From positions 1-64,000 of IMG/VR virus record IMGVR_UViG_3300024247_000004: DNA of 64,000 nt, one strand, 5' to 3'. Every line of letters starts with the position of its first letter. The stretch's first letter is position 1. The DNA comes from a virus. The notes below the pieces were generated by a model. The model searched no databases, was not told the origin of the DNA, and saw nothing but the letters and a program-made list of their open reading frames with translations. Both the position numbers and the translations under genes were made by a program. Below are positions 17,124 to 35,544 of the stretch, in pieces.

Positions 17124-18389
17124 ATGTTATTAACTTACGAACAATTTCTAGTCGAAAAGGCTCAGATAGTAGAGGGTAATTTGATTTTAGAAGGAGGAGC
17201 TGCAGGCCACATGCCTCATCCCTTTGACTATAATGATTTAACTTTCCAAGATTTTAAAACCATTGTTACAAATTCATTACAAGGTGAAATACATTTTGAA
17301 GAAGGACCTACTGAAAAAACAGATGGTCAAAACTTCTTTGTTACAGTAAAGGATGGTCAAGTTCTTTTCTCAAGAAACAAAGGGCAACTAATGGCACCTG
17401 TATCTTTAGATGGAGTTATTAAAATGTTCACGGGCCATGCATCAAAACTAGTAGAAGATACTTTTATCTATGCTGCAACAGATTTAGAAGCTGCATTATT
17501 AAGTTTAAGCGATCACCAAGAATTTAACAATGGACAAAACTTTCTTAATATGGAGTTAATTTATTCTAAGAACCCTAATGTGATTAATTATGACAGAGAT
17601 GTTATTCAATTTCACGGCATGGCAGAAACTGATGGCAAAGGTAATATAGTTAACATGTCACAGCAAACAGGTGCAAAACTTGCAAGACTTCTTAAAGGTA
17701 TAGAGGCAGATGTACAAAAGACATTTACAATTATTCCTCCACAAATACTTAAACTTCAGAAAAACATAGATTTTGAAAAGAGACAAAGTTATTATCACAG
17801 TAAATTAAATGACTTAAGAGATGAGTTTAATTTATCAGACGGTGACGAAGTTAAAATGTATCATGAAGCATGGTGGAGAAGAGAAATTGAAAAAGATTTT
17901 GCAGATATTTCAAGTGATTTAAAAGAAGGTTTATTTTTAAGATGGGCATACAATGACAAGCAAACTATGAATATGGTTGCTATGAAAAAGATTGCTACTC
18001 CCGAACAAATGAAAAAAATCAAAGAGTTTGATAAGATAAAAGGTAAAAAGTATAAGCAGAATATTTTACCATTTGAAAACTTATTTTTAGAGTTAGGAAA
18101 AGATGTATTATTAAATGCAAGTAATTTTGTTGCTGCAAATCCTGATTTAGAAAAGAAAAACTTACATGCTAAAATTAGAAAGGCAGCAGCTGACGTTAAA
18201 CTTAACGGTGACTTAAAGCAAGTTGCTAAAATCGAAGCTGAATTAGAAAGATTAGAAAGTATTGGAGGTATCGAAGGTATTGTACCAACTGAGGGAATAG
18301 TCTTTAAATATAAAGGTAAGATTATGAAACTTACCGGCACATTTGCTGCAATTAATCAGCTTATGGGCATCATAAAATACGGAAGATAA
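17124..18389 (+). CDS. Tagged nucleotidyltransferase of the RNA/DNA ligase superfamily
   Basis: A 421-residue protein. The N-terminus MLLTYEQFLVEKAQ looks like a T4 internal-protein capsid-targeting tag, followed by further [LIV]-x-E sites (IVEG, ILEGG). The ligase superfamily motifs follow: motif I EKTDGQN with candidate nucleophile K65, motif III-like NMELIYS with E144, motif IV EGIVFKYKG with E390, and motif V MKLTG with K402. A ligase of this type would join nucleic acid ends through an enzyme-AMP intermediate; RNA versus DNA substrate cannot be told. The tag suggests packaging in the head and injection with the genome. Confidence 0.65.
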   Translation: MLLTYEQFLVEKAQIVEGNLILEGGAAGHMPHPFDYNDLTFQDFKTIVTNSLQGEIHFEEGPTEKTDGQNFFVTVKDGQVLFSRNKGQLMAPVSLDGVIKMFTGHASKLVEDTFIYAATDLEAALLSLSDHQEFNNGQNFLNMELIYSKNPNVINYDRDVIQFHGMAETDGKGNIVNMSQQTGAKLARLLKGIEADVQKTFTIIPPQILKLQKNIDFEKRQSYYHSKLNDLRDEFNLSDGDEVKMYHEAWWRREIEKDFADISSDLKEGLFLRWAYNDKQTMNMVAMKKIATPEQMKKIKEFDKIKGKKYKQNILPFENLFLELGKDVLLNASNFVAANPDLEKKNLHAKIRKAAADVKLNGDLKQVAKIEAELERLESIGGIEGIVPTEGIVFKYKGKIMKLTGTFAAINQLMGIIKYGR

Positions 18390-18396
18390 ATATACT

Positions 18397-20355
18397 ATGA
18401 TAATTAATTATAATCAATTTATTTTAGAAAACGAAGATAAGGAATATGAGAAGTTAGATGCGAAAGCAGGTGACATGTCAAAAAAGTTAACCGATAAGGA
18501 GAGAGCACGTTATAAAGAATTAAGTAAAAAACATTTCCCAATAGTTATTAAAAAATTACCTGGAGATGTTTATGAAATTAAGACAGTAGGTTTAGGATAT
18601 ACAGGCCCACAAGGAGATGTGTTAGCAGAATATTATAGAGAAGAAATTTTAGCAAAGGTAAAAAATCCAAAAGGTATTCACATGGATATTAGAAGAAATG
18701 ATGGAGGACAACAGGCTCCAGCTAAGGCAATATTGGATTTTTTTGTAGATACACCTAAAGACGAAGATGGAAATAGAAAAATTCCATTAGAACAACAAAG
18801 TAATTATTGGCCAACTGATGAATGGACAGATGAAGATAGAGAAAGAGGTTATCAATCGAAGACTAATTATTTAGAAAGTAAAATAGAAGATAAGAATAAA
18901 TTTACAAATATACCTACAGTGGTTTCCACAAGTGATTGGACATTTTCAGGAGGTGAATTCTTAACTGACACTATAAAAAACTTTGGCAAAGACAACATTA
19001 CACACGTTGGCTCTAATTCAGGAGGAGGAGCAAATAGAACGTCACATACTGCCGACGACATGGCATCAACTTGGCCAGATGAAGATCCAAATGCTGAAGG
19101 ATTATCAGTTGATGAAAAGTTAGAAAGATCAATGAAAGTATTTGAAAAGTTTTATGTAGATAAAGAAAAAGCCAAAGAATGTAGAGAAGCAGTTATGAAA
19201 GATCCTAGTAAATATATTAAGGATGGAAAAATAAACGATAAAACAGTTCAAGACAAAATGCGTGAAATTACAAAAGATTTTCATGTAGCATATTTTACAA
19301 GAGAAGATGGAAAAATTGAAGTAGCGACGCCTTATGGAAAATCTGATAGGATAGTAACTGATAAAGATGGTAAGCCATTTGGACCTCCTTATGAATTTAA
19401 AGGAAATTGGGAAGGAACAGGAACAGGAAATGCAGTACCAGGAATAGGAATTACAGAAACAGATCCAGATACTGCTAAAAACAGCGCATTAGAATTACTA
19501 TATACAAAGACTGGTCAGAAAGATCAGCTTGAAAAAATGAAATCAAATCCAAAAGAATTTGGTCTTACTAAAGACGGCAAAGATGATTGGTATAAAAGAG
19601 GTACACTTGCAGATAGAGAAGCAGGTAGAGAACATAATTACCCAGGATATGCAGCTGAAGGAAAACACCCTGAAATGTGGAAAGCTAGCCAAAAGGCAGC
19701 AAGTAAAAATATGAAAAACTGGAAAAGCATTCTTAAAAAAGCAGAGTCTAATAAAAATATAGATGATAAATCTAAACCAGAGCCTGAAAATTGGTGGGAA
19801 GAATACAGTGATGAAGCAAAGGCCAAATATATTAAAAAACACGGAGAGGCTCCAGACGTCGGTAATAAAGTAAAACCAACTAATGAAAATAAAAGAAATA
19901 TTATGAAAAAGGTTAAACTATTTGAAGAATTCTTAAATGAATCAACAATGAATAATTTTAAACCCGAGGTATTGTCTAATAGAGATAAAGTAGATATGAA
20001 GCTTTTTAAAAGTTTAATGCCTAGAACTGCTAAAACGGTTAAAGACGCTGATCGTAGAATTCAAACATGGAAGGGTAATAAAATGTTTGTACATTATCAA
20101 GCATTTACAGTTCAACCAAATGGTAATAAACCAGATTTACCAACATATAAGTTCCATAATTCACAATATTGGTTAAACGATACTCAATTAGGTTGGGCAG
20201 GTAGAGCAGGTGAAAAGGTAAACATCACTTTATTAACAATAACTGATGTAACTGATCCTGATAATGAAAAAATGTTAGGAGAACTTTATGTTAATACCGA
20301 TACATATTTACAAGAACACAATATAGTATTTAACGAGTTAAAGAAAATATCATAA
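18397..20355 (+). CDS. Tagged S41-type (tail-specific/CTPase-like) peptidase fused to a second tagged module
   Basis: A 652-residue protein. The N-terminal tag is MIINYNQFILENED. Residues ~85-230 resemble the S41 protease core: HMDIRRNDGGQ matches the family's 'DlRgNgGG' strand, and IPTVVSTSDWTFSGGEFL matches the nucleophile region, with Ser in TFSGGE, followed by HVGSNSGGG. The Lys general base was not located with certainty. At residue 503 (ATG at 19903) a second tag, MKKVKLFEEFLNES, starts a ~150-residue C-terminal domain of unknown function. Two tags in one chain suggest a fusion of two packaged proteins. Confidence 0.55.
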   Translation: MIINYNQFILENEDKEYEKLDAKAGDMSKKLTDKERARYKELSKKHFPIVIKKLPGDVYEIKTVGLGYTGPQGDVLAEYYREEILAKVKNPKGIHMDIRRNDGGQQAPAKAILDFFVDTPKDEDGNRKIPLEQQSNYWPTDEWTDEDRERGYQSKTNYLESKIEDKNKFTNIPTVVSTSDWTFSGGEFLTDTIKNFGKDNITHVGSNSGGGANRTSHTADDMASTWPDEDPNAEGLSVDEKLERSMKVFEKFYVDKEKAKECREAVMKDPSKYIKDGKINDKTVQDKMREITKDFHVAYFTREDGKIEVATPYGKSDRIVTDKDGKPFGPPYEFKGNWEGTGTGNAVPGIGITETDPDTAKNSALELLYTKTGQKDQLEKMKSNPKEFGLTKDGKDDWYKRGTLADREAGREHNYPGYAAEGKHPEMWKASQKAASKNMKNWKSILKKAESNKNIDDKSKPEPENWWEEYSDEAKAKYIKKHGEAPDVGNKVKPTNENKRNIMKKVKLFEEFLNESTMNNFKPEVLSNRDKVDMKLFKSLMPRTAKTVKDADRRIQTWKGNKMFVHYQAFTVQPNGNKPDLPTYKFHNSQYWLNDTQLGWAGRAGEKVNITLLTITDVTDPDNEKMLGELYVNTDTYLQEHNIVFNELKKIS

Positions 20356-20366
20356 AATTATAAGAA

Positions 20367-22205
20367 ATGGCATTACAGGATTTAAGAACATATTATGAGT
20401 CAGTTGAAAAAGAGGATTTTAATAATCTCTTAGCACAGAAATGTTTAGTTACTGAAAAGATTCAAGCAAGTAGTCTTCATGTAAGAAGAGAAGATAGACT
20501 CTTAGAATTTTATAAATCAGGTAATAAGCAGGCTCTTAATAAAATAGATAGAACAATTGTTTCTTACTATGAAAAAGGTATAGGCCATTTTAAAGCATTA
20601 TTAGACGAGACTATTCAACAGATGCCAAGTGATTGGAAATTTGGATTTGATTATATGGTTAGTGAAAAGACAGTAGACATTGAATATGATACACTTCCAA
20701 AAAATAGTCTTATATTAACACATATTCAAGTATTAAATGAAGACAGAACCCAGATTAAAAAAGTAATTAGAGATCCTAAGATTTTAGAAAAATGGGCTAA
20801 TCTTTTAGAAGTTCAATCGCCTGAGGTTGTTTATGAAGGCATCCTTTCAGATCACCAAAAGGAAAAGTTAGTTAATATACTGAGCTTACAAGGAGAGCAA
20901 GCAAAAATAGAATTACAAGATTTTGGTTTTTCTTATAGAGCATTTACAACATTTAACGAGTCAATTCATAAGTCAATGTTAAACAATGATATTCATAAAG
21001 ACATTGATGGATTAGTTGTAAGTTTTGTAGAGGGCAAATCATTAAAGAACTTTAAACTACAGAGTCCATTAAAAGAAATTAAAGAACAAGAAGAAAGAAA
21101 GAGTTCGGATGCGTATCAAATTACCGTAGTAAAACTTATTGAATATTTTAATGCGTTTGATTTTAGTGAAATACAACTTGAAAGTAAAGAAGTTGATGAG
21201 AGATATTTAGAATTAATGACAGCAGGTTTTAATTCATTTATAAAAGATAATGGAGCAAGCTTTATTGGCATGAATTTTGATAGCGCAGAGTTTGCAAACA
21301 ATGAAGCATTTGATTTAAATCCAAAAATGATAACAAATCAAGAAACTATTAGGCTTGTTAATGAATCAAGAGAAGTCGCAGAATTATTAAAAATAACATT
21401 AGGTACTTTTAGAAAGAAGAGACAGAAAGAAAATGGAGTTTTAGCAGGAGATGCATTTAATAGTTTAAACGGTATTATAGAAAAGATTGAAGCAAGAATT
21501 TACGAAAAAGTAGAGGAAGATAGTGTAATGGATTTTAAAACATTTAAAATTAACGATACACTTAAGGGACAAACAAATCCAATTAACGAAGGTTTAAAAG
21601 TAAACCATCCTGAAAGAGGAGCTAAAGAAGTTAATATGTTTGTTGGTAGGTTTCAGCCATTCACATTAGGACATGTTAAAGTCGTTGAACATTTGCATAA
21701 ACAAAATGGACTTCCAACTGTTATATTTTTAGTTAAAGCTAAAAAGAAAAAGAAAGAAGACAGTTTTAAAAGACCATTTGATGAAACAATGCAGGTAAAT
21801 ATGATAAAACAGGTGATGAAGGAATATCCTATTGAGACAGTGTATGTTATAGATACCGCAGCAATTGACAAAATGTTTAATGCTATGAGACCTAAGTATG
21901 AACCTGTATTATGGGGAACAGGTAGTGATAGAATGAAAACATATGGCTATCAAGTTAATAACCCAAAATATAGAGGAGAATTAGGAGTTGAAGATAGCTT
22001 CAGATTAGAAGAAATTCCAAGGACAGACGATAACATTAGTGCAACAAAGGTAAGAAACGCTTTATTAGATGGAGACGAAAAGACATATAAGTCCATGACT
22101 CCAAAATCTATGCACAAAATGTATAAATTATTAAAACAAACAATGGAAGAAAGTGTTGAACTACAAGAACAAGTTTTAACATTTTCAGAATTTAAAAGCA
22201 AATAA
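20367..22205 (+). CDS. Fusion of ligase-like domain and NMNAT-like nucleotidylyltransferase
   Basis: A 612-residue protein with two nucleotide-handling domains. The N-terminal ~260 residues look like a ligase-superfamily domain: VTEKIQASSL with K31 (KxQA instead of KxDG), FGFDYM, and DGLVVSFVEGK followed by FKLQSP. From residue ~424 a HIGH-type nucleotidylyltransferase domain is clear: MFVGRFQPFTLGH with the TxGH motif at the end, and DNISATKVRNAL matching the 'ISxTxxR' motif of NMN adenylyltransferases. The C-terminus LTFSEFKSK resembles the capsid tag but at the wrong end. Roles in NAD metabolism or end repair are possible; the substrate is not shown by sequence. Confidence 0.6.
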   Translation: MALQDLRTYYESVEKEDFNNLLAQKCLVTEKIQASSLHVRREDRLLEFYKSGNKQALNKIDRTIVSYYEKGIGHFKALLDETIQQMPSDWKFGFDYMVSEKTVDIEYDTLPKNSLILTHIQVLNEDRTQIKKVIRDPKILEKWANLLEVQSPEVVYEGILSDHQKEKLVNILSLQGEQAKIELQDFGFSYRAFTTFNESIHKSMLNNDIHKDIDGLVVSFVEGKSLKNFKLQSPLKEIKEQEERKSSDAYQITVVKLIEYFNAFDFSEIQLESKEVDERYLELMTAGFNSFIKDNGASFIGMNFDSAEFANNEAFDLNPKMITNQETIRLVNESREVAELLKITLGTFRKKRQKENGVLAGDAFNSLNGIIEKIEARIYEKVEEDSVMDFKTFKINDTLKGQTNPINEGLKVNHPERGAKEVNMFVGRFQPFTLGHVKVVEHLHKQNGLPTVIFLVKAKKKKKEDSFKRPFDETMQVNMIKQVMKEYPIETVYVIDTAAIDKMFNAMRPKYEPVLWGTGSDRMKTYGYQVNNPKYRGELGVEDSFRLEEIPRTDDNISATKVRNALLDGDEKTYKSMTPKSMHKMYKLLKQTMEESVELQEQVLTFSEFKSK

Positions 22206-22206
22206 G

Positions 22207-23217
22207 ATGAGTATAAGAACAGATTTTCAAATATTATTAAATAAAGCTATTAAAAGAGAAGATCTTTTAGTAGAAGGAAATATAGGTAAGTATCAATCAC
22301 TAGGAAGTTTAAATAATTTAAAGGCAAAGCAACAAATGTTTGACCTTATTAACAAAGATTATTTTAAAGGAAAATCTCCTTTTTCAAAGAGATTAACTTT
22401 AACAGAAATAGATGATTCTACAATGCAAGAAGTTTTTACATTAATGAGTGAAGATATTGATGCAGCAAATACAATATTTAATTTAAAAAGAACAGGTATT
22501 GGTTCAGGTGAAATATTAATGGCATACCTTGTTGAAAACTTAGTAATAGGAGGAGGTAGTGCAGATGTAGACTTAAACTTATTCGATCCAAAGTCGGGTA
22601 AATTTTTAAGTGCTGGAATAGCAGAATTAAAAGAGGTTACAAGAACAAATGATGGTTTTTTAAAAGGTTGGAGAACAGGCGCAAGGCACGCTGCAATTAG
22701 AGCACAGGCTATTGCGGATATTAGAAATTTATATTTAGCAGTTAGGGATTCTATTACTGAATTAGACCCTACTACAAAGGCTGGTCAAGCTGCAGCAATA
22801 AGTGCAGCAAAAGGAGAATATTCAGCACTACTTAAATATTTTGAAGACCTAGATGCAATACCAGCAGCAGCTGATAGAGATTTTAAACTTAAACAAGGTA
22901 CAAAAGGTGAAATAATCGTAAAGTTTCAAGGGAATGTAATAGGTAATATTGGTGACGCAAAAACAATTTCAGAAATTAATAAGATTTTAAGTCAAGATGT
23001 TAATACGAATGTAAAAACTTATAGGCAAATCGAAGAAGAAGTGGCAAAAGGGTTTGGAGATATAGATGAAAAGTTTGTATTTATTAGAACTACAGGAAAA
23101 TCTGAAAAGAAAAAGATACAAGGTATTTATTATAAGGAAAAATTACCTGATAATGCTAAAGAATTAAAAATATCAGAAGTCACTCAAAATACGATTAAAG
23201 TTAAAGTAAAAATTTGA
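22207..23217 (+). CDS. Unknown protein, possible PD-(D/E)xK nuclease fold
   Basis: A 336-residue protein starting 1 base after the previous stop. GSGEILMAYLVE (~100-110) followed by GGGSADVDLNLF (D120, D122) and IAELKEV (E140-x-K142) is compatible with a PD-(D/E)xK nuclease core: helix with Glu, strand with Asp, strand with ExK. The N-terminus DFQILLNKAIKREDLLVEGN has tag-like and [LIV]-x-E character but is not a clear tag. It sits inside the tagged-protein block. Function is not established. Confidence 0.4.
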   Translation: MSIRTDFQILLNKAIKREDLLVEGNIGKYQSLGSLNNLKAKQQMFDLINKDYFKGKSPFSKRLTLTEIDDSTMQEVFTLMSEDIDAANTIFNLKRTGIGSGEILMAYLVENLVIGGGSADVDLNLFDPKSGKFLSAGIAELKEVTRTNDGFLKGWRTGARHAAIRAQAIADIRNLYLAVRDSITELDPTTKAGQAAAISAAKGEYSALLKYFEDLDAIPAAADRDFKLKQGTKGEIIVKFQGNVIGNIGDAKTISEINKILSQDVNTNVKTYRQIEEEVAKGFGDIDEKFVFIRTTGKSEKKKIQGIYYKEKLPDNAKELKISEVTQNTIKVKVKI

Positions 23218-23224
23218 TATATAA
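23216..23224 (+). promoter_or_regulatory. Late-promoter-like motif GATATATAA
   Basis: Exact copy overlapping the stop codon of the preceding gene, 28 bases before the ATG at 23253, with an A-rich leader between. Confidence 0.55.
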
Positions 23225-23252: not shown

Positions 23253-25706
23253 ATGGCAACATTCGAAGAATTTTTAAACGAAAGAAATATAACTCTTAAA
23301 AGAAGATATACTGAATCACACCCTTCCCAAACTGTAGGCAATTCAGCTAGAGTTAGAAATGCAATTATCGAAGCATTAAAGGATGGCAAAATAACAGTTG
23401 AAGAATTTAATAATATAGTTAGTCAACACTCTTCTGCTCCATCAAAATGGACAAGAGGTAATAAAAGATTTTTCAAAATAGAAGAAGATGGCGTAAGTCT
23501 TTCTAAATATGGAACAAAAATATTAAATAGCTTAGTTACTGAATCTATAGATGAAGGTTTAAATAAGTCAGATGTTACATATCAATTAGCAATAGATTAT
23601 ACAGGTAGAACTAAGCCGAAAATTACTAAACTTAATAAGAAAAGACTTGAAATTAAGTACGGTTATAAAATTAGCCCAGAAACGGTAATTGATTCTATCA
23701 AGAAGGTTCATCCAGAAGTAGAACTTAAACATGTTGAATGGTCAGATAAAATGTCAGGTGGAGGTTTTCACATATTTGATATTTTAGAATCTGCAGTTAC
23801 TGAAGGAACATATGACTCAAAAGATCATATAGGATCTACATCAGATGGACAAGGTTCTAATGCTGAGATTTATAAAAAAGGTAGAGGATATTATGTAGTT
23901 GTTAGTGGAGAGTATGATTATGACTTCGAGGCTAAGAATGACAAAGAACTAATAAATAAGTTAGAAGAATATGAATTTGATTCTTCTGATATTTTAGAAT
24001 CAGCGATTAATAATATAGAAGAAAATATGATACATAATAATTTTAATGAATTCATTAATAAATCAATTAATGAAAATAACGTACAGGATTTAGATATGGA
24101 AGATATGAATCCTAAAATGGCTAAGCAGCTATTAAACATGGCTAGTAAACAATATAAAAACGAATTTCAAGGATCTTATACTGTAGATAAAGGAAATAAA
24201 AAAATGAGGTTTGATACTTATAGTGCTTTATTAGCTATGGTAAAGCAAAAAGATTCTGGACCTTATGGTCCTTCATATGGTATTAATATTGGAGGAAATA
24301 ATGAATTAGAAGATTTTGAAGGTAATGTTTTAGGTAAGCTAAATGATAAATCATTATCAAGTGCAATTAGTAGTGTTGCAGCTGCTATGAAAATGGCAGC
24401 TAAAAACAGTAATGAATCAGTAGTTACTGAAGCCAGAGTAAGTGCAAAAAAGTTATTAAAATCAGTTGTAAATGGAGAAAGTAACTCAGTTGAAGGTATT
24501 AAACTTTCTAAAGAAATGGCCCAATCATTTTTAGAGTGGCTAGATCAATCAAGTTATGGTAGAAAATTTAGCGATCTTCCATTTGATAAATTATTTAGTG
24601 CAGCATTTAATTGGGGTATTGAAAGATATGCTAAAGACAATAAACTGAAAAATGAATTAAAAGATTTAAAAACAAAGGCAAAAACAATGAAAGAATCAAA
24701 AATATACGAAAGTTTCAGTGAATTTGTTAATGAATCTTTAGAACTTAATGAAGCATTAAAGAGTTCTAAACTTAGAGGACTTCTTACTATGAAAAGAGGT
24801 AGTAAGGCAATTTTAAAAGCAATTTATGGCTTTAGTAAAATAGAATTAGACAAAATAACAGATGATCAAATAATAGATATTGATCCTAAATTAGGTAAAA
24901 AAGCAGAAGGTTTAGTTGTTTATTATACAACTCAAGAAAAAGACAACCCTTATGCTGATACTTCAAAATCTACATATAATTCTGCTGGTAAAATTCCAGC
25001 AAATACAATACTTGCATTAGGTATGGGAAAAGACGTTGCATATGTTAAAAGAGATTATATTAAGAGAAAAATGACAATGTCTTTAACTACAGATCCTAGA
25101 AAATCATCTTATGATATTGGAATTAATAAAGAGTATAGAGGCTGGGACGCATCCGGTATTTATAATGTAAAAAGAGTAATTGATGTTGCAGACGCTGCAT
25201 TTGTAATTAATACTAACGCTCTTCCAAATACTAAAGGAAAAATTGAAGACAGAGTAAAAGCTAAAGAAGGTGCATTAGCATTTAAATCTGATAAGGAATT
25301 TAAAGATGCAAACATAGCAAGATATAGAGAAATTCTACAAAAGAGAGCAAGTGAATTACCAATAGATAAATTAGTAGAAGATGCAATTGATGATGCAACT
25401 AAGGTTATGAAAGATGGTTTAAAAAATCAAGAAAAAAATAAGTACGGAGAACTTATTGCAGGTGTAGGAAAGGACGGTAGAGCTTATAAATTAAATGACA
25501 TTAGTAATTTTATAAATGGTTTAATTTCAGACTATGAAAGATGGTCAGGTTATATGGCAACAATTGAAGAGGCTGAAGCTAAATATGGTAAAGATTCTAG
25601 AGAATTTGAATGGGAAGCTAGATATTCTCAAAAAGAATCTGAGGAATACGCAAAGAGAATTAAAGATAAATTAGCTAAACTTAAGAAAAGAAACTTAGCT
25701 TGGTAA
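23253..25706 (+). CDS. Multi-tag packaged polyprotein candidate
   Basis: An 817-residue protein with three copies of the capsid-targeting-like tag: MATFEEFLNERN at residue 1, MIHNNFNEFINKS at 259, and MKESKIYESFSEFVNES at 479. Each begins at or beside a methionine. [LIV]-x-E sites (LVTES, AVTEG, VVTEA) are scattered between, as expected for prohead-protease processing. The segments between tags are lysine-rich and do not match a family I know; residues ~530-690 (TILALGMGKDVAYVKRDY region) look like an alpha/beta enzyme domain. The start is supported by the GATATATAA motif and A-rich leader. Fusion of formerly separate internal proteins is inferred. Confidence 0.6.
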   Translation: MATFEEFLNERNITLKRRYTESHPSQTVGNSARVRNAIIEALKDGKITVEEFNNIVSQHSSAPSKWTRGNKRFFKIEEDGVSLSKYGTKILNSLVTESIDEGLNKSDVTYQLAIDYTGRTKPKITKLNKKRLEIKYGYKISPETVIDSIKKVHPEVELKHVEWSDKMSGGGFHIFDILESAVTEGTYDSKDHIGSTSDGQGSNAEIYKKGRGYYVVVSGEYDYDFEAKNDKELINKLEEYEFDSSDILESAINNIEENMIHNNFNEFINKSINENNVQDLDMEDMNPKMAKQLLNMASKQYKNEFQGSYTVDKGNKKMRFDTYSALLAMVKQKDSGPYGPSYGINIGGNNELEDFEGNVLGKLNDKSLSSAISSVAAAMKMAAKNSNESVVTEARVSAKKLLKSVVNGESNSVEGIKLSKEMAQSFLEWLDQSSYGRKFSDLPFDKLFSAAFNWGIERYAKDNKLKNELKDLKTKAKTMKESKIYESFSEFVNESLELNEALKSSKLRGLLTMKRGSKAILKAIYGFSKIELDKITDDQIIDIDPKLGKKAEGLVVYYTTQEKDNPYADTSKSTYNSAGKIPANTILALGMGKDVAYVKRDYIKRKMTMSLTTDPRKSSYDIGINKEYRGWDASGIYNVKRVIDVADAAFVINTNALPNTKGKIEDRVKAKEGALAFKSDKEFKDANIARYREILQKRASELPIDKLVEDAIDDATKVMKDGLKNQEKNKYGELIAGVGKDGRAYKLNDISNFINGLISDYERWSGYMATIEEAEAKYGKDSREFEWEARYSQKESEEYAKRIKDKLAKLKKRNLAW

Positions 25707-26212
25707 TGAACGAAAACGTTACACCAGCAAATATTGGAGGTATGGGAAATCCTGCCTTTCCACAAGGTGGAGAAGTAGGAAGTGGAGATGTGCCAGCTGG
25801 TAAAGGAGATGCTAAGAAAGAGCAAAAGAAAAAGAAGAAAGAAAGAGAAGAATATCTTAAAAATAGAAAAGAAGAAATGGTACATACTACATTTAGTGGA
25901 TTTATAAATGAAGCTAAAATTAAAGATGCTAGAAAAGATTTAGGCTATATTGCATTTCTTGAAGAAATGGCAGAAATTAATAATAGAGACATTCAAAACG
26001 CATATGATGTTGCACTAAAAGTTTTACAAGATAAAGGTATGAGTGAAAAGGAAGCAATTGGATTTTTAAACTCACCACATGGAAAGTATATGGCAGAATA
26101 TTTAATTCCAGGTCAAGATTATAGTCATGAAGCATTCTTAGACAAATTAGATGAATACTATAACGAAAGAATGTTGAAACAATATGCAAAGGATTTTAAA
26201 AACCTAGCATAA
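25706..26212 (+). CDS. Protein sharing the capsid protein's NIGGMG motif and carrying an internal tag
   Basis: A 168-residue protein. The ATG at 25706 overlaps the upstream TAA by one base; an upstream TTG at 25700 is less likely. Residues ~7-17 read ANIGGMGNPAFP, nearly the same as MNIGGMGAVAFP near the N-terminus of the major capsid protein. A very lysine-rich linker (KKEQKKKKKERE) follows, then at residue 58 (ATG 25877) a tag-like MVHTTFSGFINEAK and a helical C-terminal domain. A capsid-interior role is inferred. A strong terminator follows. Confidence 0.55.
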   Translation: MNENVTPANIGGMGNPAFPQGGEVGSGDVPAGKGDAKKEQKKKKKEREEYLKNRKEEMVHTTFSGFINEAKIKDARKDLGYIAFLEEMAEINNRDIQNAYDVALKVLQDKGMSEKEAIGFLNSPHGKYMAEYLIPGQDYSHEAFLDKLDEYYNERMLKQYAKDFKNLA

Positions 26213-26671: not shown

Positions 26672-27094
26672 ATGAACAATATTAAGAATTTTAACGACTT
26701 TATTAATGAGTCTCAAGAAATAAACGAAGGTACTCGTTCTCAATTTGGAAAAATTGATAAAAAAGGAAATATAACTTCAGTTTATATGCATTATGATGGT
26801 TATCCAGAAAACGTATTACCTATTTTAAGAAAAGGTTATAAAGGTGGAAAAAATGTAGATTATGTACTTTCACAAGGAAGTGGTTCAGGTCTTGAAGTAA
26901 ATCCTAAGAAAATTAACTTTTATAAAGATGATAGAGATTCTCAATCAACTGGTAATGTTGCAACAATTGCAAATTATTTATCAGATGTAGAAGATGATGG
27001 TGGAGCAGAATACGTTTATTTATGGGATGAAAGATCAAAGCAATGGATGATGGCATCTTATGGTGAAAGAGACTTAAAGGTTGCAGAAGTTTAA
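26672..27094 (+). CDS. Tagged small protein, packaged internal protein candidate
   Basis: A 140-residue protein beginning MNNIKNFNDFINESQEINEG, a clear member of the tag family with [LIV]-x-E sites directly after. The remainder (YMHYDGYPENVLPILRKGY, and near the end VYLWDERSKQWMMASYGERD) is a compact alpha/beta-looking domain I do not recognise. It is first of three consecutive short tagged genes. Confidence 0.6.
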   Translation: MNNIKNFNDFINESQEINEGTRSQFGKIDKKGNITSVYMHYDGYPENVLPILRKGYKGGKNVDYVLSQGSGSGLEVNPKKINFYKDDRDSQSTGNVATIANYLSDVEDDGGAEYVYLWDERSKQWMMASYGERDLKVAEV

Positions 27095-27422: not shown

Positions 27423-27440
27423 AATTAAAAAAACAAAGTT

Positions 27441-29376: not shown

Positions 29377-29841
29377 ATGGCAAACGAAGATAATCAATGT
29401 GCAGATTTAGAGGTTAAAGACCACTACTCAGAAGGTAAAGATACTTTCGGCATGATTTACAATAAACAAAGAGAATTGCAAAGTAGATTAGGTTTAAATT
29501 ATGAAAACTTAACTCTTAAAGAAATTGCAGAAATGTGGATGGTAAATAAACATGCAATGTCAGATGAGCTTAATGAAATGTTTGATGCCTTAGGCGGTAT
29601 TAATGATGGAATTGGTTCAGCTGCTTGGAAATATTGGAAACAGGATAATAAGAAAGCAGAAACAATGACAGTTGCAGATTTATCAGAAGCTGATAGGTTA
29701 GAATTATTTTATGAATGGATCGATGGCCTTCATTTCTATATGAACTTTGCACTTGCAATTGGAATGACTAGTGAGGATATTGTCAACCTTTATATGGCAA
29801 AACAAAAAGAGAATATTAACAGACAAGAAAGAGGATATTAA
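29377..29841 (+). CDS. Dimeric (all-alpha) dUTPase
   Basis: A 154-residue protein that would hydrolyse dUTP to dUMP, keeping uracil out of DNA. The all-alpha NTP-pyrophosphohydrolase pattern is visible: an acidic ELNEMFDALGG helix, a WKYWKQ segment, and EWIDGLHFYMNFALAIG, which matches the metal-binding E-x2-D helix of dimeric dUTPases. It immediately precedes and abuts the DNA polymerase gene (overlap of 1 base). Confidence 0.72.
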   Translation: MANEDNQCADLEVKDHYSEGKDTFGMIYNKQRELQSRLGLNYENLTLKEIAEMWMVNKHAMSDELNEMFDALGGINDGIGSAAWKYWKQDNKKAETMTVADLSEADRLELFYEWIDGLHFYMNFALAIGMTSEDIVNLYMAKQKENINRQERGY

Positions 29842-31241
29842 TGCTATTAGATATTGAACAACGAGATAAAGAAGTAATTGTAAGCTATTATAACACAGAA
29901 GGTGAAGTAGCCTTTAAAAGATACCCAGTTGGTCAATTTCAAAATTGGTATGTAACACATGACAAAGATCGTTACAGACATGAAAGCGCACAAAATTGGG
30001 ATGGTCGACCTGTTAAATTATCAAATGCAAGACAATATAATAAATTTTCTTTGATCTATTTTATAGATCAACTTCCAGAAGCTGATAAAAAAGAAATACT
30101 TGCATATAATAAACCAAGAACATATTTCGTAGACATTGAAACAGAGATTGTAGATGGCTTCCCTAAACCAGAAGAGGCTAAGACACGTATCCTGTCATTC
30201 TCTATCATTACACCAGAAAGAAAGGCTATAGTTTTAGGCTTAAAAGATTTGGATGATATGACAGGTATGCAAGATGATACTAACAAATATTTTAAATCAT
30301 TGGATAGTGATTGGAGTCTATCATATTATAAGTTTAAGAATGAATATGATATGGTTTATAACTTTATTCATAAGTTTATGCCTAAGTTTCCAATGATGAC
30401 AGGTTGGAACTTTATTAATTATGATTGGCAATATATTGTTAACCGATGTAAGAGACTACAAATTGATATTAGTGAATCTGCAAAAACAGGTGCAGTTGAT
30501 AGAATGGATGGCAGACCACTTCATATGGGAATACTTGATTATATGCAATTGTATGATAAGTATGATCGTTCTGTAAAGGTTAAAGAATCAAATACCCTTG
30601 ATTATGTTTCAGGTCAAATTGTAGGTCTTAAAAAGATTAAATACAATGGCGGCTTACAGGAATTGTATGAAAAAGATTTTAGAAAATATATTTATTATAA
30701 CATTGTCGATTCATGTTTGGTATATTATATAGATCAGAAGATTAAAGCAATGGATGTTCTTTTAACTCTTGCAAATATTACGCAAATGCCACTTTATAAA
30801 GCAGCAAGCCCAGTTGCTATGACAGAAGCATTAATGGCAAGAAAGCTTAAAGAACAAAATAAAATTATTGCAACTGAAAGAAGAGATGACAATAGAAAAG
30901 ACGGTAGTTATGCCGGCGCTTTTGTTAAAGAACCAATCGTTGGTTTTTATAGTGGAGTAAGTGCATTTGACTTTGCTTCTCTATACCCTTCAATTATGCG
31001 ACAATTTAATATTTCTCCTGATTCTTTTGTTGAAACTGTACAAAAACATGAGATAGAAGAAAAAAGAAAAAATAAAGATTATATTGTTTGTGAAAATGGC
31101 GCAGTCTATACAACAGAAGATTCTGTCTTGAAAAGAATCCTCACCGACCTGTATAGTCAACGTAAGGAATATAAGGCAAAATCATTTGAATATTTTGAGA
31201 AGGCAAGATTAATTCGAAAAAAAATTAGTCAGCTAAAGTAG
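29841..31241 (+). CDS. 43: DNA polymerase gp43, N-terminal half (exonuclease and palm motif A)
   Basis: A 466-residue protein containing the proofreading exonuclease of a family B polymerase: Exo I FVDIETE, Exo II WNFINYDWQYI, Exo III YYNIVDSCLVYY. These are followed by palm motif A, AFDFASLYPSIM. The chain stops after LYSQRKEYKAKSFEYF and IRKKISQLK, in the fingers region, before motifs B and C. Those lie in the separate gene at 36351. Alone it could not polymerise, so a two-subunit polymerase is expected. No frameshift or intein motif is seen at the break. Confidence 0.93.
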   Translation: MLLDIEQRDKEVIVSYYNTEGEVAFKRYPVGQFQNWYVTHDKDRYRHESAQNWDGRPVKLSNARQYNKFSLIYFIDQLPEADKKEILAYNKPRTYFVDIETEIVDGFPKPEEAKTRILSFSIITPERKAIVLGLKDLDDMTGMQDDTNKYFKSLDSDWSLSYYKFKNEYDMVYNFIHKFMPKFPMMTGWNFINYDWQYIVNRCKRLQIDISESAKTGAVDRMDGRPLHMGILDYMQLYDKYDRSVKVKESNTLDYVSGQIVGLKKIKYNGGLQELYEKDFRKYIYYNIVDSCLVYYIDQKIKAMDVLLTLANITQMPLYKAASPVAMTEALMARKLKEQNKIIATERRDDNRKDGSYAGAFVKEPIVGFYSGVSAFDFASLYPSIMRQFNISPDSFVETVQKHEIEEKRKNKDYIVCENGAVYTTEDSVLKRILTDLYSQRKEYKAKSFEYFEKARLIRKKISQLK

Positions 31242-31261
31242 TCAACTTTTGGGAGGTTGAA

Positions 31262-31270
31262 GATATATAA
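31262..31270 (+). promoter_or_regulatory. GATATATAA motif upstream of a terminator
   Basis: Exact copy after the gp43 N-half stop. The next feature downstream is a terminator at 31294, so it may drive only a tiny transcript or be a relic of a former gene junction. Confidence 0.35.
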
Positions 31271-31293
31271 TCCATCAACAACTACACCCAATC

Positions 31294-31327
31294 AGATGAT
31301 CAAAATTAGATCATCTTTTGTTTTTTA
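31294..31327 (+). terminator. Rho-independent terminator after gp43 N-half
   Basis: AGATGATC (31294-31301) pairs with GATCATCT (31309-31316), loop of 7, then T-runs. It separates the polymerase N-half from the nrd genes transcriptionally. Confidence 0.75.
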
Positions 31328-31330
31328 ACA

Positions 31331-31349
31331 GGTTATTAATGTAATAACC
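31331..31349 (+). promoter_or_regulatory. Inverted repeat upstream of nrdB
   Basis: GGTTATT and AATAACC flank a 5-base spacer, 33 bases before the nrdB start. It could be an operator or an RNA hairpin; no T-run follows, so it is not a second terminator. Confidence 0.35.
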
Positions 31350-31382
31350 AGGAATGTAAAATTTAAAATATATTAAATAAAT

Positions 31383-32381
31383 ATGAATATTTTCAAAGAA
31401 AGAATAGAATACAAGCCATTTGAATATCCAGAATATTATACAGAAGGTTGGCTTCCACAGGCTCAAGCGTTTTGGTTACATACTGAAATTCCAATGCAGA
31501 GTGATATAAAAGATTGGAAAGAAAACTTAATGCCACATGAAAGAAATCTTGTTGGTAATATTCTTTTAGGCTTTGCTCAAACTGAATGTGCTGTTAGTGA
31601 TTATTGGACTACAATGGTTACTCATTGGTTTCCAAAACATGAGATCAAACAAATGGCCATGATTTTTGGTAGCCAAGAAACTATTCACGCCACAGCCTAT
31701 TCTTATTTAAATGAAACTTTAGGTCTTGAAGATTTTGCTGCATTCCTACATGAGCCATCAATGGCAGATAAGTTTGAACATCTTTCAGGAGTAGAAAATG
31801 ATTATACACATGAGGATTTACAAAAGAATCCAGCAGCAAGAAGAGAAGTTGCAAGAAGTTTAGCAACATTTTCAGCATTTGCAGAAGGCGTAAGCCTTTA
31901 TAGTTCATTTGCAGTCTTATATTCTTTTCAAATGAGAAACTTATTAAAGGGAATTGGTCAACAAATGAAATGGTCAGTTAGAGACGAATCATTACATTCA
32001 AAAATGGGTTGTAAATTATTTAGACACATGTGTGATGAATATCCTGAACTTAGAGAAGAAGTTAAAAACGATGTAATAAGAGCTGCTGAGATTATGGTAG
32101 AAATGGAACATGCATTTATTGATAAGATATTTGAAATGGGAAATCTTGAAAATCTTAAAGCAAACGATCTTAAAAACTTTATTTTAAGAAGAACAAATGA
32201 AAAACTTATTGAATTAGGTTATAACCAACATTTTGAATTTGATACAGAATCAGCAAAAGAACTTGATTGGTTTTATCATTTAACAGGAGGAGTAGAACAT
32301 AGCGACTTTTTTGCAATTAGACCAACTGCATATTCTAAAGCAGGTGAAGATGAGGTCTGGGACGAGGAGTCAATTTTTTAA
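31383..32381 (+). CDS. nrdB: Class I ribonucleotide reductase small subunit
   Basis: A 332-residue protein holding the diiron-tyrosyl radical cofactor used with NrdA to make deoxyribonucleotides. Metal ligands are seen at E68, E99, H102 (QETIHATAY), E168 (FAEGVS), E202 and H205 (RDESLH), and the radical tyrosine at Y106 in the E-x2-H-x3-Y spacing. The first ligand is Glu rather than the Asp of E. coli NrdB. The gene lies 11 bases before nrdA. Confidence 0.93.
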   Translation: MNIFKERIEYKPFEYPEYYTEGWLPQAQAFWLHTEIPMQSDIKDWKENLMPHERNLVGNILLGFAQTECAVSDYWTTMVTHWFPKHEIKQMAMIFGSQETIHATAYSYLNETLGLEDFAAFLHEPSMADKFEHLSGVENDYTHEDLQKNPAARREVARSLATFSAFAEGVSLYSSFAVLYSFQMRNLLKGIGQQMKWSVRDESLHSKMGCKLFRHMCDEYPELREEVKNDVIRAAEIMVEMEHAFIDKIFEMGNLENLKANDLKNFILRRTNEKLIELGYNQHFEFDTESAKELDWFYHLTGGVEHSDFFAIRPTAYSKAGEDEVWDEESIF

Positions 32382-32392
32382 ATATATAAATT

Positions 32393-34228
32393 ATGGAATT
32401 ATTTGTAGAACAAGAAGATTCACCTAAGGCTGATAAAATAGCCCAAAAACTAGGATGGATAAAAGGTACTGACTATCCAGTTTGGGGCCACACTGAAATT
32501 TATTTAAAGACAATTTCTAAAGGATATTGTTTAGAAGGAGAAACACCAAAGGATGCTTATTGGAGAGTAGCAACCACTATTGCAAGAAGACTTAGAAGAT
32601 CTGATATGGCTAGTAAGTTCTTTGATTATATTTGGAAGGGTTGGTTAAATTTAGCGTCTCCAGTACTTTCAAACACTGGTACAGAAAGAGGATTGCCAAT
32701 TTCTTGTTTTGGAATTGATGTTGCAGATAGTATTCATGATATTGGTAAAAAGAATCTTGAAATGATGTTACTTGCAAAGAATGGTGGAGGAGTTGGAATT
32801 GGCGTAAATCAAATTAGACCTGCAGGAACTGAAATTACAGACAATGGAACTTCAGATGGTGTTGTACCATTTTGTAAAATATATGACTCTACAATTCTCG
32901 CTACAAATCAAGGAGCAGTAAGAAGAGGAGCAGCCTCTGTTAATATAGATATTGAACATGATGATTTTTGGGATTGGTTAGAAATTAGAGAACCAAAGGG
33001 AGATATAAATAGACAATGTTTAAATATGCACCAATGCGTAATTGTTAGTGATGGCTTTATGCAAAAGGTACAAGAAGGAGATAAAGAAGCAAGAAAGAGA
33101 TGGACTGCACTTATTAAAAAACGTAAAGCAACTGGAGAGCCATATATTATGTATAAAGGAAATGTTAATAGAGCAAATCCTGAAGCATATACAAAGAATG
33201 GTTTAAAAGTTTACATGACAAATATTTGTAGTGAAATTACATTACATACTGATGAGAATCACAGTTTTGTTTGTTGTTTAAGTTCATTAAACCTTACAAA
33301 ATATGACGAGTGGAAAAACACTGATTTAATTAGAACCGCAACGTGGTTTCTTGATGGTGTTATGGAAGAATTTATTCAAAAGGCAAAATACAGACAAGGC
33401 TTTGAAAATGCAGTTCGTTCTGCTGAAAAAGGTAGAGCACTTGGTCTTGGCGTCTTAGGTTGGCATACATATCTACAAGAAAGAGGTATTCCATTCGAAG
33501 GTCTTACAGCACAGTTTGAAACAAGAAAGATATTTTCTCAAATTAAATTAGAGAGCGAAGCAGCAAGTAGAGAACTTGCAGTAGAATATGGAGAACCACT
33601 ATGGTGTGTTGGTACAGGCATGAGAAATACACATTTAAGAGCAGTTGCACCTACGGTAACTAATTCTAAATTAAGTGGCAATGTTAGCCCAGGTATTGAG
33701 CCATGGGCCGCTAATGTATTTACTGAACAAACTTCTAAAGGTACATTTATTCGTAAAAATGTTTCACTTGTAAGTTTCCTAGAAAAAATTGGTAAAAATA
33801 CAAATGCAGTTTGGAACAAGATTCTTGAAGATAATGGTTCGGTTTACGGTCTAGATTTTATTGACAACTACATGGTAGAGCATAACATGTGGGGAGGTAA
33901 AGTTATTGAAAAACTAGAATGGGAAAGTTTAGATAAAATGGAACAAACTAAATGGGTTGAAGCAAAAGAAGTATTTAAAACATTTAAAGAAATTAATCAA
34001 CTTGAACTAGTTAAGCAGGCTGGAGTTAGACAACAATATATCGATCAATCTTGTAGTCTTAATCTTGCGTTTCCAAATACAGCAAGTCCAAAGTTTATTA
34101 ATTTAGTTCATTTAGAAGCCTACAAACAAGGTATTAAGACTCTCTATTATATGAGAACTGAAAGCGTATTAAGAGGTGATATTGCCTCAAGTGCAACTAG
34201 CGAAGATTGCGTATCATGCGATGGCTAA
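32393..34228 (+). CDS. nrdA: Class I ribonucleotide reductase large subunit
   Basis: A 611-residue catalytic subunit. Active-site cysteine C105 is in PISCFG. The N-x-C-x-E motif is N277-C279-E281 (NICSEI), and the paired-disulfide cysteine region is FVCCLSSLNL. YY in KTLYYMRTES is on the radical path, and the C-terminal redox pair is C606/C609 in EDCVSC. It is shorter than E. coli NrdA and begins near the barrel, so an ATP-cone allosteric domain appears to be absent. It is followed by structured RNA hairpins. Confidence 0.93.
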   Translation: MELFVEQEDSPKADKIAQKLGWIKGTDYPVWGHTEIYLKTISKGYCLEGETPKDAYWRVATTIARRLRRSDMASKFFDYIWKGWLNLASPVLSNTGTERGLPISCFGIDVADSIHDIGKKNLEMMLLAKNGGGVGIGVNQIRPAGTEITDNGTSDGVVPFCKIYDSTILATNQGAVRRGAASVNIDIEHDDFWDWLEIREPKGDINRQCLNMHQCVIVSDGFMQKVQEGDKEARKRWTALIKKRKATGEPYIMYKGNVNRANPEAYTKNGLKVYMTNICSEITLHTDENHSFVCCLSSLNLTKYDEWKNTDLIRTATWFLDGVMEEFIQKAKYRQGFENAVRSAEKGRALGLGVLGWHTYLQERGIPFEGLTAQFETRKIFSQIKLESEAASRELAVEYGEPLWCVGTGMRNTHLRAVAPTVTNSKLSGNVSPGIEPWAANVFTEQTSKGTFIRKNVSLVSFLEKIGKNTNAVWNKILEDNGSVYGLDFIDNYMVEHNMWGGKVIEKLEWESLDKMEQTKWVEAKEVFKTFKEINQLELVKQAGVRQQYIDQSCSLNLAFPNTASPKFINLVHLEAYKQGIKTLYYMRTESVLRGDIASSATSEDCVSCDG

Positions 34229-34230
34229 AA

Positions 34231-34313
34231 TGTGTGGCGCTTCGGTGGCCACGCTTTAGGACCGTTTAATTACGGGTTTAAGAGGGAGATCGTTCGCTAC
34301 GCTCCCTCTTTTT
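34231..34313 (+). ncRNA. Three-hairpin GC-rich element ending in a terminator
   Basis: Hairpin 1: GTGGC (34234-34238) with GCCAC (34248-34252), extendable by two pairs. Hairpin 2: CCGT (34262-34265) with ACGG (34272-34275). Hairpin 3: AGAGGGAG (34281-34288) with CTCCCTCT (34302-34309), then a T-run, a typical terminator. The element is much richer in G+C than its surroundings. It may be only the nrd 3' end, or a stable small RNA released from it. Confidence 0.6.
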
Positions 34314-34325
34314 ATAAAAAACAAT

Positions 34326-34334
34326 GATATATAG
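34326..34334 (+). promoter_or_regulatory. Late-promoter-like motif GATATATAG
   Basis: Variant with final G, 7 bases before the chosen ATG at 34342. It overlaps an alternative upstream ATG at 34324, arguing for the later start. Confidence 0.45.
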
Positions 34335-34341
34335 AAATATT

Positions 34342-35544
34342 ATGATTTTACAATATAACGAATTTTTAACAGAAAAAGAAGTTTCCATATCAAGAAGAAA
34401 CTTTTATACAAAGGCTTTTCCACAATTTCTTAATGAAGATGAATTAGTCGAAGCCGCTAATTTAATAAATGAGGGTCTTTTTGATAATCTTTCTTTAGAA
34501 AAAATAGAAATGTTAAATGAGTCAGAACTTTATGAAAGTTTACTTTTAGAATTAAATTTAATACAAAGGCTAAAAGATAAAGCAACAGATGCATATCAAG
34601 TTGTAAAAGATAAAGGTAAAAAAGCTTTAAGTGCTATTCAACAAGGGGTGTTAGCAATTGGAGGTAAAATAGCCAATATTATTAAAAAGATTGTAGAAAA
34701 TATTAAAGCAGTTGCTAAAAAAGCATTTGAAGCTGGTAAAAAATTAGCAAATAGCGCAAAGTCAAAAATGATAGCAGCTTTTAAAAATGAATTAGATTCT
34801 GGAAAGACTAATGACAAAGATGCAATGAAAAACAAACTTAAATCTTTAAAAGACGATGTTCAAAATGGTAAAAAGGTAGGAAAACACGTTATAAAATGGT
34901 GTACTAAAGACGTTGCTAAGGAAACTGCTGACGCAATTATAAAAGGTGCAAAAGAAGATACTGATAAATCAAAGAAAGATAAAGATACAAGTGAATCTAT
35001 GGGATACAGAAGCATGGATTTATTTATGGAACATTCGTTATATAATACATTTTCAGCAGCAATTGATGCAGGTGAAATGGATCTTAATGAAATAGAACAA
35101 CAATTAAACGAAGCTGGAGATAAAAAAGCAGCTAAAATTCCATTTATTTCTACTATTGCAAAATTTGTCAATAAGTTTCCACCTTTTAGTATTCTAAAAA
35201 CGCTTAAAGAAAAAGGAGCTGAGGTAACAGGAGGATTATTAGGAAATTTATCTAAAATGGCAACTAAAGTAATGGGAGCTCCAGGACCTTATAAGTTTTT
35301 AGCAGTTGCTACATTCATAGGTCTCGCTCTTGAAATAATAATGAAAGATACTATAAAAACCCTGACTACAAGCGTAATTACTACACTGTTCTTTCCACCA
35401 GCTGCTCCATTTATTACTGCAGTGTTTAATGCAGCTTATGTACTTGCTGCAATCGCAGCTCTTGAAGTAGTTTTAGGTACTATTGAAGATAATGATGCAG
35501 ATGATGCAAAGGCAGCAGCAAAGACATCCTCTAATAAAGCTTAA
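34342..35544 (+). CDS. Tagged internal protein with basic helices and hydrophobic C-terminus
   Basis: A 400-residue protein. From the ATG at 34342 the N-terminus is MILQYNEFLTEKE, a clear capsid tag; the ATG 18 bases upstream lies inside the promoter motif. Acidic [LIV]-x-E-rich residues follow, then long Lys/Ala amphipathic helices (KKALSAIQQGVLAIGGKI and similar). A strongly hydrophobic C-terminal part (LAVATFIGLALEIIM, and PFITAVFNAAYVLAAIAALE) could span membranes. Packaged and then inserting into the host envelope during DNA entry is an inference from tag plus hydrophobicity. It lies just upstream of the clamp gene. Confidence 0.55.
   Translation: MILQYNEFLTEKEVSISRRNFYTKAFPQFLNEDELVEAANLINEGLFDNLSLEKIEMLNESELYESLLLELNLIQRLKDKATDAYQVVKDKGKKALSAIQQGVLAIGGKIANIIKKIVENIKAVAKKAFEAGKKLANSAKSKMIAAFKNELDSGKTNDKDAMKNKLKSLKDDVQNGKKVGKHVIKWCTKDVAKETADAIIKGAKEDTDKSKKDKDTSESMGYRSMDLFMEHSLYNTFSAAIDAGEMDLNEIEQQLNEAGDKKAAKIPFISTIAKFVNKFPPFSILKTLKEKGAEVTGGLLGNLSKMATKVMGAPGPYKFLAVATFIGLALEIIMKDTIKTLTTSVITTLFFPPAAPFITAVFNAAYVLAAIAALEVVLGTIEDNDADDAKAAAKTSSNKA

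Follow-up and report, generated by a model that had tools for sequence, protein, structure and literature searches.

The stretch of DNA analyzed here (the window) comprises 64,000 nucleotides of a 67,329-base virus record, IMGVR_UViG_3300024247_000004, which by gene content comes from a phage of the T4 superfamily. Nine of its genes, named here by their start positions (e.g., 17124, 26672, and 27441), encode unrelated proteins that begin with one short motif, [FY]xx[FY][ILV]xE, resembling the capsid targeting sequence (CTS) of the T4 internal proteins (IPs). These tagged genes likely form the cargo set of the phage head, in which the tag would dock each precursor, a gp21-type protease would cut it, and the bodies behind the tag would be injected into the host. 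The tag, its sites, the swapping of bodies, and the shuffling of modules are features read from compared sequences; docking, cleavage, packaging, injection, and effector roles in this phage we infer by analogy. Comparative evidence (a tag profile, the 17124 family, and the 26672 and 27441 loci) lends strong support to the original prediction that unrelated bodies share a modular CTS-like tag, while the bodies are at most candidates for the effector role that it assigned. Its view of modular packaging had the right direction and was too narrow, as cargo also seems to come in shuffled polyproteins with predicted joint sites.

Several related records were available for comparison. A 204,977-base record (G001) continues the window sequence: two 100-base window probes are present in it at the correct spacing, and it encodes the protease and the 23253 protein with 100% identity. 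Four relatives (G002-G005) have protease identities of 72-96%, and a more distant 212-kb record (G016) has a gp21 match.

The tag and its T4 counterpart

The nine N-termini originally listed are all present in the sequence at their given starts, two of which (27111 and 34342) sit within longer mechanical open reading frames (ORFs; 27081 and 34324). Of the 62 window proteins, these nine and no others have the strict motif in the first 14 residues; 2000 shuffles of the proteins yielded 0.17 on average and at most 3. The looser form of the tag first proposed is found in 11 of the 62, compared with 1.28 by shuffle (maximum 7), and we take its two additional matches (37569 and 55396) for chance. 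Chance as the source of the motif itself was ruled out by the shuffles of the window and of whole records. The description of the tag as an N-terminal feature is correct for the nine genes and incomplete, given that the motif also occurs internally in 18397 (residue 509), 23253 (residue 264, with K for E, and residue 488), and 25706 (residue 63). Frequent tags in core phage proteins would have spoken against a packaging role; none of the eight window proteins identified with PHROGs as acting in replication, recombination, or nucleotide metabolism has an N-terminal tag.

In whole records, where the strict motif was counted in the first 16 residues of ORFs (shuffle means 0.04-0.57), 13 of 270 G001 ORFs are tagged (shuffle 0.55). 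The corresponding counts are 7/164 in G002, 2/105 in G003, 4/119 in G004, 9/104 in G005, 6/52 in G007, 7/35 in G008, 6/68 in G010, 4/87 in G014, 5/93 in G015, 8/307 in G016, and 7/131 in G018. Among known phages with a match to phrog_207 (gp21), tags were found in T4 (3/277), KVP40 (3/403), P-SSM2 (5/338), and Mel-JY01 (1/249); phages without such a match gave 0/50 (T7), 0/221 (SPO1), 0/78 (N4), 0/72 (lambda), and 1/376 (phiKZ).

A profile search linked the tag to T4. A weight matrix built solely from 57 distinct tags of this clade was scored on 277 T4 ORFs, and the top three were gp61.1 (18.5 bits), IPIII, and IPII (17.5 bits each), the next T4 ORF reaching 8.7. IPII and IPIII indeed have the N-terminus MKTYQEFIAEA, as previously stated. 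T4 gp61.1 (NC_000866 18966-19130, L205), a protein of 54 residues annotated as hypothetical, starts MKTFKEFIKE and outscores both; its sequence makes it a candidate for a further T4 internal protein. In the T4 CTS, residues 4 and 7 matter for targeting and residues 8 and 10 for processing, and the T4 prohead protease cuts after L/I-x-E (section 2.5), according to the available part of the source (PMC9026906).

The same positions are conserved in the 17124 family, of which at least 553 relatives occur in viral contigs and 80 loci were kept. The family was gathered with the patterns GGAAGHM and TEKTDGQ; conservation of those letters is not evidence, and that of the letters before them is. A strict tag lies within the first 40 residues of 64 of the 80 homologues (50 of 58 distinct N-termini). 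The eight distinct exceptions include five with the tag further in, behind an extra ..MTREEYVAH.. segment, two with FEEWLTDK or FEQWLADK, and one (L212) without a tag. In an alignment of 50 sequences (the window protein plus 49 from the loci kept, trimmed at match ends, with some N-termini short), both aromatic positions are F/Y/W in all 48 rows with letters, the position after them is L/I/V in 48/48, and the acidic position is E in 45 and D in 3, while the tag letters in between vary. The conserved positions are the four that matter in T4 for targeting (4, 7) and processing (8, 10). Furthermore, [ILV]xE directly precedes the body in 80/80 homologues, with a tag-to-site spacing of 7 to 19.

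These data bear on whether the tag could be a shared leader, spread by gene duplication or recombination and without a targeting role. Several tags are near-identical (27111, 27441, and the internal tag of 18397) and recombination at the tag is evident, as such a leader would predict. However, tags of the 17124 family differ in sequence and agree only at their aromatic, aliphatic, and acidic positions, which are the functional positions of the T4 CTS, and the tag is absent from all eight core proteins; we consider a leader of this kind highly improbable.

The 17124 body may be an enzyme. A structure model from the 50-sequence alignment reached a pLDDT of 85.2 and a pTM of 0.83 (residues 1-28 below pLDDT 50), improving on a poor model from 6 sequences (pLDDT 57). 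With VIA-align, the first 36 rows were ligases, the best having a Z of 9.2 and a root-mean-square deviation of 3.8 over 199 aligned residues, which places RNA ligases nearest among solved folds; the best Foldseek E was 0.017, with none at 0.001. K65-T66-D67-G68, E144, K267, and G269 are invariant in the 50 sequences, the KTDG part being biased by the TEKTDGQ search pattern. We take the EKTDG, NMEL, and KEGL stretches to be motifs (KxDG and further) of the ATP-dependent RNA ligase superfamily. RNA-ligase-like is our best assignment for this modeled body and is not proven.

Exchanged bodies and probable cargo polyproteins

At some loci the body has changed while the tag has stayed. At the place of 27441, G002 and G005 have the same neighbors on both sides and the same tag, followed by an unrelated body of 160 residues; nucleotide identity is 0.95 in the 39-base tag and 0.45-0.51 behind it, whereas the 60 bases ahead of the start have 0.72 and the sequence further upstream 0.79-0.84. 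Homologues of the 26672 body occur in 30 records of the phage collection, from cyanophages and Streptococcus phages. All 8 that were examined are untagged as annotated and start M-(G/A)T(R/N/K).., which corresponds to the residue after INE in the window's FINESQEINE/GTRSQFG (here and below, a slash marks the predicted cut). For the S-T4 homologue the open frame continues beyond the annotated start on the 5' side, and this extension includes no strict tag. The GTR body was also compared in 10 distinct contexts, tagged or within polyproteins, from loci already collected, and INE or IEE stands before it in all 10; in G005 the 26672 orthologue has a 157-residue insert immediately behind the tag. 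Proteins similar to 10809 in G005, G010, G014, G015, and G016 also begin with a tag (those of G010 and G014-G016 recognized by eye).

Other window genes encode chains of several modules, whose build differs among relatives. The place of 18397 is taken in G005 by a free gene of 156 residues, 150 of which match the second 18397 module at 94%, and in G010 by a gene of 199 residues that shares the first 39 only (54%) before an unrelated body. In orthologues of 23253 the two terminal modules are constant, and those in the middle are lost, inserted, or reordered. These orthologues have 678 residues in G005, 706 in G002, 866 in G007 (L062), 1170 in G008 (L063), and 1104 in G010 (L065); two modules of L062 have exchanged places. 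Residues 253-387 of 23253 are missing in G005 and residues 393-483 in G002, and residues 479-650 have a relative in a free tagged gene of G004 (29% identity). An ARAKYVNTQ.. module is common to 16374 and L063, and 25706 has a module of 82 residues inserted at its tag in G002 and G005. Related records contain further chains of 558-1330 residues, apparently of the same build. As the automatic clustering of modules over-merges its two largest families, only the well-separated module order of 23253 is used here. A tblastn search of 50,697 phage records with 23253, 22207, and the L063 polyprotein gave no match at E 0.01.

Two of these chains resemble head proteins in part. The basic leader of 25706 (25706-25876, NVTPANIGGMGNPAFP..GSGDVPAG) is similar to the N-terminal arm of the major capsid protein (51742-53148, NIGGMGAVAFP..GSGD), with a BLAST identity of 44% over 36 residues (E 0.002). 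A module of the L072 polyprotein (3631-7620), at about residues 590-692, is related to stretches of haloarchaeal viruses and Roseobacter phages annotated as prohead protease, portal, or capsid protein, and perhaps represents a small head-associated domain spread across many tailed viruses.

The ends of shared segments in these chains coincide with predicted cut sites more often than expected. Breakpoints were defined in 12 records as ends of local homology internal to both proteins, and counted as near a site when within 3 residues of [ILVMF]xE[AGSKDNEYR]. In a polyprotein component of 44 proteins, which replaced a first component polluted by collagen-like and low-complexity proteins, 118 of 229 breakpoints were near sites compared with 34.1 expected (standard deviation, sd, 5.3); after collapsing similar contexts, the numbers were 98 of 198 compared with 29.1 (sd 4.9), orthologue breakpoints not being fully independent even then. 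The other proteins of the 12 records, which include the 25706 family as it falls outside the 44-member component, gave 30/215 (25.1 expected, sd 4.5) before and 20/160 (17.5 expected, sd 3.7) after collapsing. Per 10,000 residues, the polyprotein component contains 17.6 copies of the motif ES[VILMF]xE, compared with 1.43 elsewhere, and 37 such joints make up 27 distinct 15-mers. Joint codons are diverse, and the joints therefore seem to be kept as residues, not merely as copied DNA.

The long chains could also be polyvalent proteins (Iyer et al., 2017) that act undivided or are cleaved by a metallopeptidase embedded in them; the [ILV]xE joints would then be mere flexible linkers or recombination seams. 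Multidomain early-phase proteins predicted in phage heads are a known class, as the available part of that paper describes (PMC5512222); one tagged G001 protein has a weak MPTase-PolyVal match below the curated cut-off, and 100 of the 198 breakpoints are away from any site, a number that also weighs against the cargo reading. Conversely, breakpoints are enriched at the T4 protease cut rule, and the diversity of joint codons speaks for selection on residues. There was no Pfam peptidase match at E 0.05 in the L072, L063, L069, and L065 polyproteins, and only a weak S41 match, below cut-off, in 18397. Taken together, the polyvalent-protein reading of these chains is quite unlikely. We lean slightly toward a polyprotein strategy of the phage, whereby one tag would load a chain of early-phase effectors, the head protease would cut it inside the prohead, and the joints would allow the injected arsenal to be reshuffled, the tag possibly copying scaffold packing. 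Coordinates are given in Table 1.

Table 1. Tagged genes, probable cargo polyproteins, and head genes of the window (a slash marks a predicted cut)
Feature	Position	Strand	Basis or detail
Tagged protein MKTFIEYLEE.., 122 residues	10809..11177	+	weak glycine-zipper match
Cargo polyprotein, no N-terminal tag	16374..17108	+	ARAKYVNTQ.. module at 16704-16934
Predicted propeptide of 17124	17124..17192	+	tag MLLTYEQFLVE (residues 1-11) and spacer to E23; predicted cut LILE/GGAAGHM
17124 body, RNA-ligase-like nucleotidyltransferase (best assignment)	17193..18386	+	EKTDG, NMEL, KEGL stretches
Polyprotein: tag MIINYNQFILE, module, second tagged module	18397..20355	+	first module with weak S41-peptidase match
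Internal tag MKKVKLFEEFLNE of 18397	19903..19941	+	residues 503-515
N-terminal domain, INE/G junction, NadM-like adenylyltransferase domain	20367..22205	+	junction E at residue 408
Neighbor protein, no strict tag	22207..23217	+	N-terminal LLVE/GN site; conserved in G002 and G005
Polyprotein of about six modules	23253..25706	+	
Internal tag MIHNNFNEFINKSINE of 23253	24027..24074	+	absent in G002 and G005
Internal tag KIYESFSEFVNE of 23253	24699..24734	+	ahead of C-terminal module
Polyprotein: basic leader, internal tag, body	25706..26212	+	
Internal tag MVHTTFSGFINE of 25706	25877..25912	+	residues 58-69
Predicted propeptide of 26672	26672..26728	+	MNNIKNFNDFINESQEINE/GTRS
Body of 26672	26729..27091	+	phrog_1987
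Tagged protein MKNVKLFEEFINED, 103 residues	27111..27422	+	
Tagged protein MKNIKLFEEFINEN, 151 residues	27441..27896	+	
Tagged protein MILQYNEFLTEK, 400 residues	34342..35544	+	further sites FPQFLNE and NLINE/G
Portal protein, gp20-like	47742..49346	+	phrog_213
Acidic tagged protein between portal and protease	49367..49711	+	tag; gene position
Head maturation protease, gp21-like, continuous with scaffold-like part	49759..51657	+	residues 8-373 match phrog_207
Five YxxY[LIV]AE tag-like repeats in scaffold-like part, partly 14 residues apart	50410..50883	+	motif scan
Major capsid protein, gp23-like	51742..53148	+	phrog_138; GINE/AS in N-terminus

Head genes and the proposed route into the virion

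A portal protein, a gp21-type protease, and a major capsid protein are all encoded in the same genome (phrog_213, phrog_207, and phrog_138). The protease is continuous with its scaffold-like part in a frame of 632 residues in the window and 820 in G016; herpesviruses and lambda have protease-scaffold genes of similar layout. A methionine within this frame (MEEF.., nucleotide 50374 in the window; MEEFVK) is kept in 6 of 6 records compared and is a possible internal start for the scaffold alone. Other window genes encode part of a DNA polymerase, UvsX, a DnaB-type helicase, SbcC, SbcD, the small subunit of ribonucleotide reductase, a clamp loader, and a further DNA helicase.

With these components, cargo delivery might proceed as follows. 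The short amphipathic tag would act like the T4 CTS and dock each precursor on the scaffold core during prohead assembly, and the gp21-type protease 49759 would then cut after [ILV]xE, releasing the body inside the head. For polyproteins, the leading tag would carry in a chain of small modules, which the same protease is predicted to separate at tags or at ES[VIL]xE/[AGK]-like joints. Tags and joints also act as exchange points, at which bodies have been swapped, inserted, lost, or reordered, with the delivery signal staying in place. The freed bodies (the RNA-ligase-like enzyme, the adenylyltransferase, and small domains) would enter the host along with the DNA. The spacing of the tag residues is that of an amphipathic helix; together with the five scaffold repeats, it suggests that the tag may dock by imitating scaffold packing, which is a guess. 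As for the bodies, we favor roles as effectors or helpers of early infection, in view of enzyme-like bodies, body swapping, and free homologues. A scan of 8 proteins for PADLOC defense families found none at E 0.01.

Tagged proteins and polyproteins might instead be prohead core filler, i.e., tag-recruited scaffold parts that are chopped and mostly expelled without delivery to the host. T4 core proteins are also cut to fragments, most of which exit the head according to the part of the T4 literature available; tag-like repeats are present in the scaffold-like part, and the gene 49367, flanked by those for portal and protease, has a strongly acidic product (charge -17 per 100 residues). However, among the widely differing bodies are an enzyme-like fold and an adenylyltransferase domain, one locus shows the exchange of a body, and the 26672 body exists free in Streptococcus phages. 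Across the 13 tagged G001 proteins, which are 100-817 residues long, body charge ranges from -17 to +7.6 per 100 residues, and 7 of the 13 are within 2 charges per 100 residues of neutral. Core filler thus seems unlikely as a general explanation. The 49367 product is probably a head-core component rather than an effector; its slot is presumably the place of gp67/gp68 in the T4 gene order.

Virion data from cyanophages are relevant to the cargo reading. The adenylyltransferase domain of 20367 is homologous to NMNAT/cytidylyltransferase-like proteins of cyanomyoviruses; a free untagged relative of the domain is encoded in G001 (149404-149856). The S-CREM2 cytidylyltransferase (ORF154) was reported in CsCl-purified virions, with 3 unique peptides and 11.2% coverage, and the available text of that study also places NMNAT-like proteins in the virion proteomes of S-CBWM1, S-SZBM1, and S-SCSM1 (PMC10665884), as does the available part of a second paper for S-SCSM1 and S-CBWM1 (PMC9602691). 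The S-CREM2 protein starts MKNFSSFLTEA, the only strict tag among the 25 coding sequences of that stretch. Similarly, the P-RSM4 cytidyltransferase starts MKKFNAFLIEA, and its first 50 residues match in 340 phage records.

Several observations weigh against the cargo reading. We know of no virion proteome for this clade. For S-CREM2, where virion detection of ORFs 152-176 was taken from part of the virion table, 6 of 7 virion-detected coding sequences are without a tag and 0 of 18 others are tagged (p 0.28, not significant), so in that stretch most virion proteins do not need one; the authors caution, in the part of the paper available, that co-purification is possible (PMC10665884). IPI and Alt of T4 were not recovered by the clade profile (8.7 bits or less), and phiKZ, without a gp21 match, has two ORFs scoring 12.4 and 9.2. 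HTVC008M has 0/204 tagged ORFs although a phrog_207 match is present, indicating that the tag is enriched in this clade yet gp21 alone does not imply tags. The gp21 match is missing in 11 of 18 records of one set and 3 of 11 of another, all possibly fragments. A T4-type late promoter (TATAAATA) is not enriched, with 14 occurrences in the window compared with 17.5 expected, and is found at 1 of 13 tagged genes compared with 9 of 230 others, leaving co-expression with head genes without promoter support. The 20367 and 16374 genes have no strict N-terminal tag. Finally, tagged bodies are not generally basic, unlike the T4 IPs; as they are not small and basic, the claim of membership concerns the delivery tag and does not extend to the IP protein families.

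Relation to known systems

The system is the T4 internal-protein system in a new form. It has in common with T4 IPI-IPIII/Alt and their CTS an N-terminal propeptide (10-19 residues in the T4 system) bearing the targeting and processing residues, the spacing of aromatic, aliphatic, and E positions, the L/I-x-E cut rule, an encoded gp21-type protease and portal, and a tag that is kept while bodies diverge. It differs in that T4 has 3 tagged ORFs by the same test compared with 13 in the 205-kb G001, in the tags and sites inside long polyproteins with shuffled modules, in the continuity of the protease with a scaffold-like part, and in the charge of the bodies. Three internal proteins, all anti-restriction factors, are present in T4, and for its near relatives at least 10 have been reported (PMC12373910).

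Similarities to other phage systems are more limited. Polyvalent proteins, phage products with several domains, presumably enter the host early after being packaged, and their authors liken them to viral polyproteins; embedded peptidases, not the prohead protease, are proposed for their release in the part of the paper available (PMC5512222). Several distinct domains in one phage chain are present here as well, whereas the joints here fit the head protease rule, carry a capsid tag, and separate modules that are mostly small. Domains of the polyvalent repertoire (MPTase, ART, ParB, RadC, and others) gave weak matches only (MPTase-PolyVal 8e-4 and PARP 0.024, below cut-off), in single-body proteins of relatives. 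The PARP match is in a tagged protein of 218 residues (G002 30747-31403, minus strand), perhaps an ADP-ribosyltransferase cargo like T4 Alt, and G001 also encodes a tagged metallopeptidase-like protein (176438-176848, HEHTH) with an untagged relative at 157740. The ejection proteins of phiKZ and SPN3US are internal head proteins cut by the prohead protease, although with propeptides often longer than 100 residues instead of a short tag, as far as the available text describes them (PMC5694885). The cyanomyovirus NMNAT/cytidylyltransferase-like virion proteins share the homologous adenylyltransferase domain, and those of P-RSM4 and S-CREM2 start with the tag; in the window, by comparison, the domain is fused behind another via INE/G in a gene without a strict N-terminal tag. 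No description of cargo polyproteins cut by a prohead protease was found in a limited literature search, which did not cover subscription papers and bioRxiv preprints.

The reading makes predictions for known phages, namely that T4 gp61.1 is an internal protein and that tagged cyanophage adenylyltransferases are cut after [ILV]xE. If the polyprotein reading is true, the tag and joints would provide a sequence rule for finding cargo, mature ends, and boundaries in uncharacterized genomes, and the protein sets that T4-type phages of open environments deliver into their hosts would be larger and quickly reshuffled.

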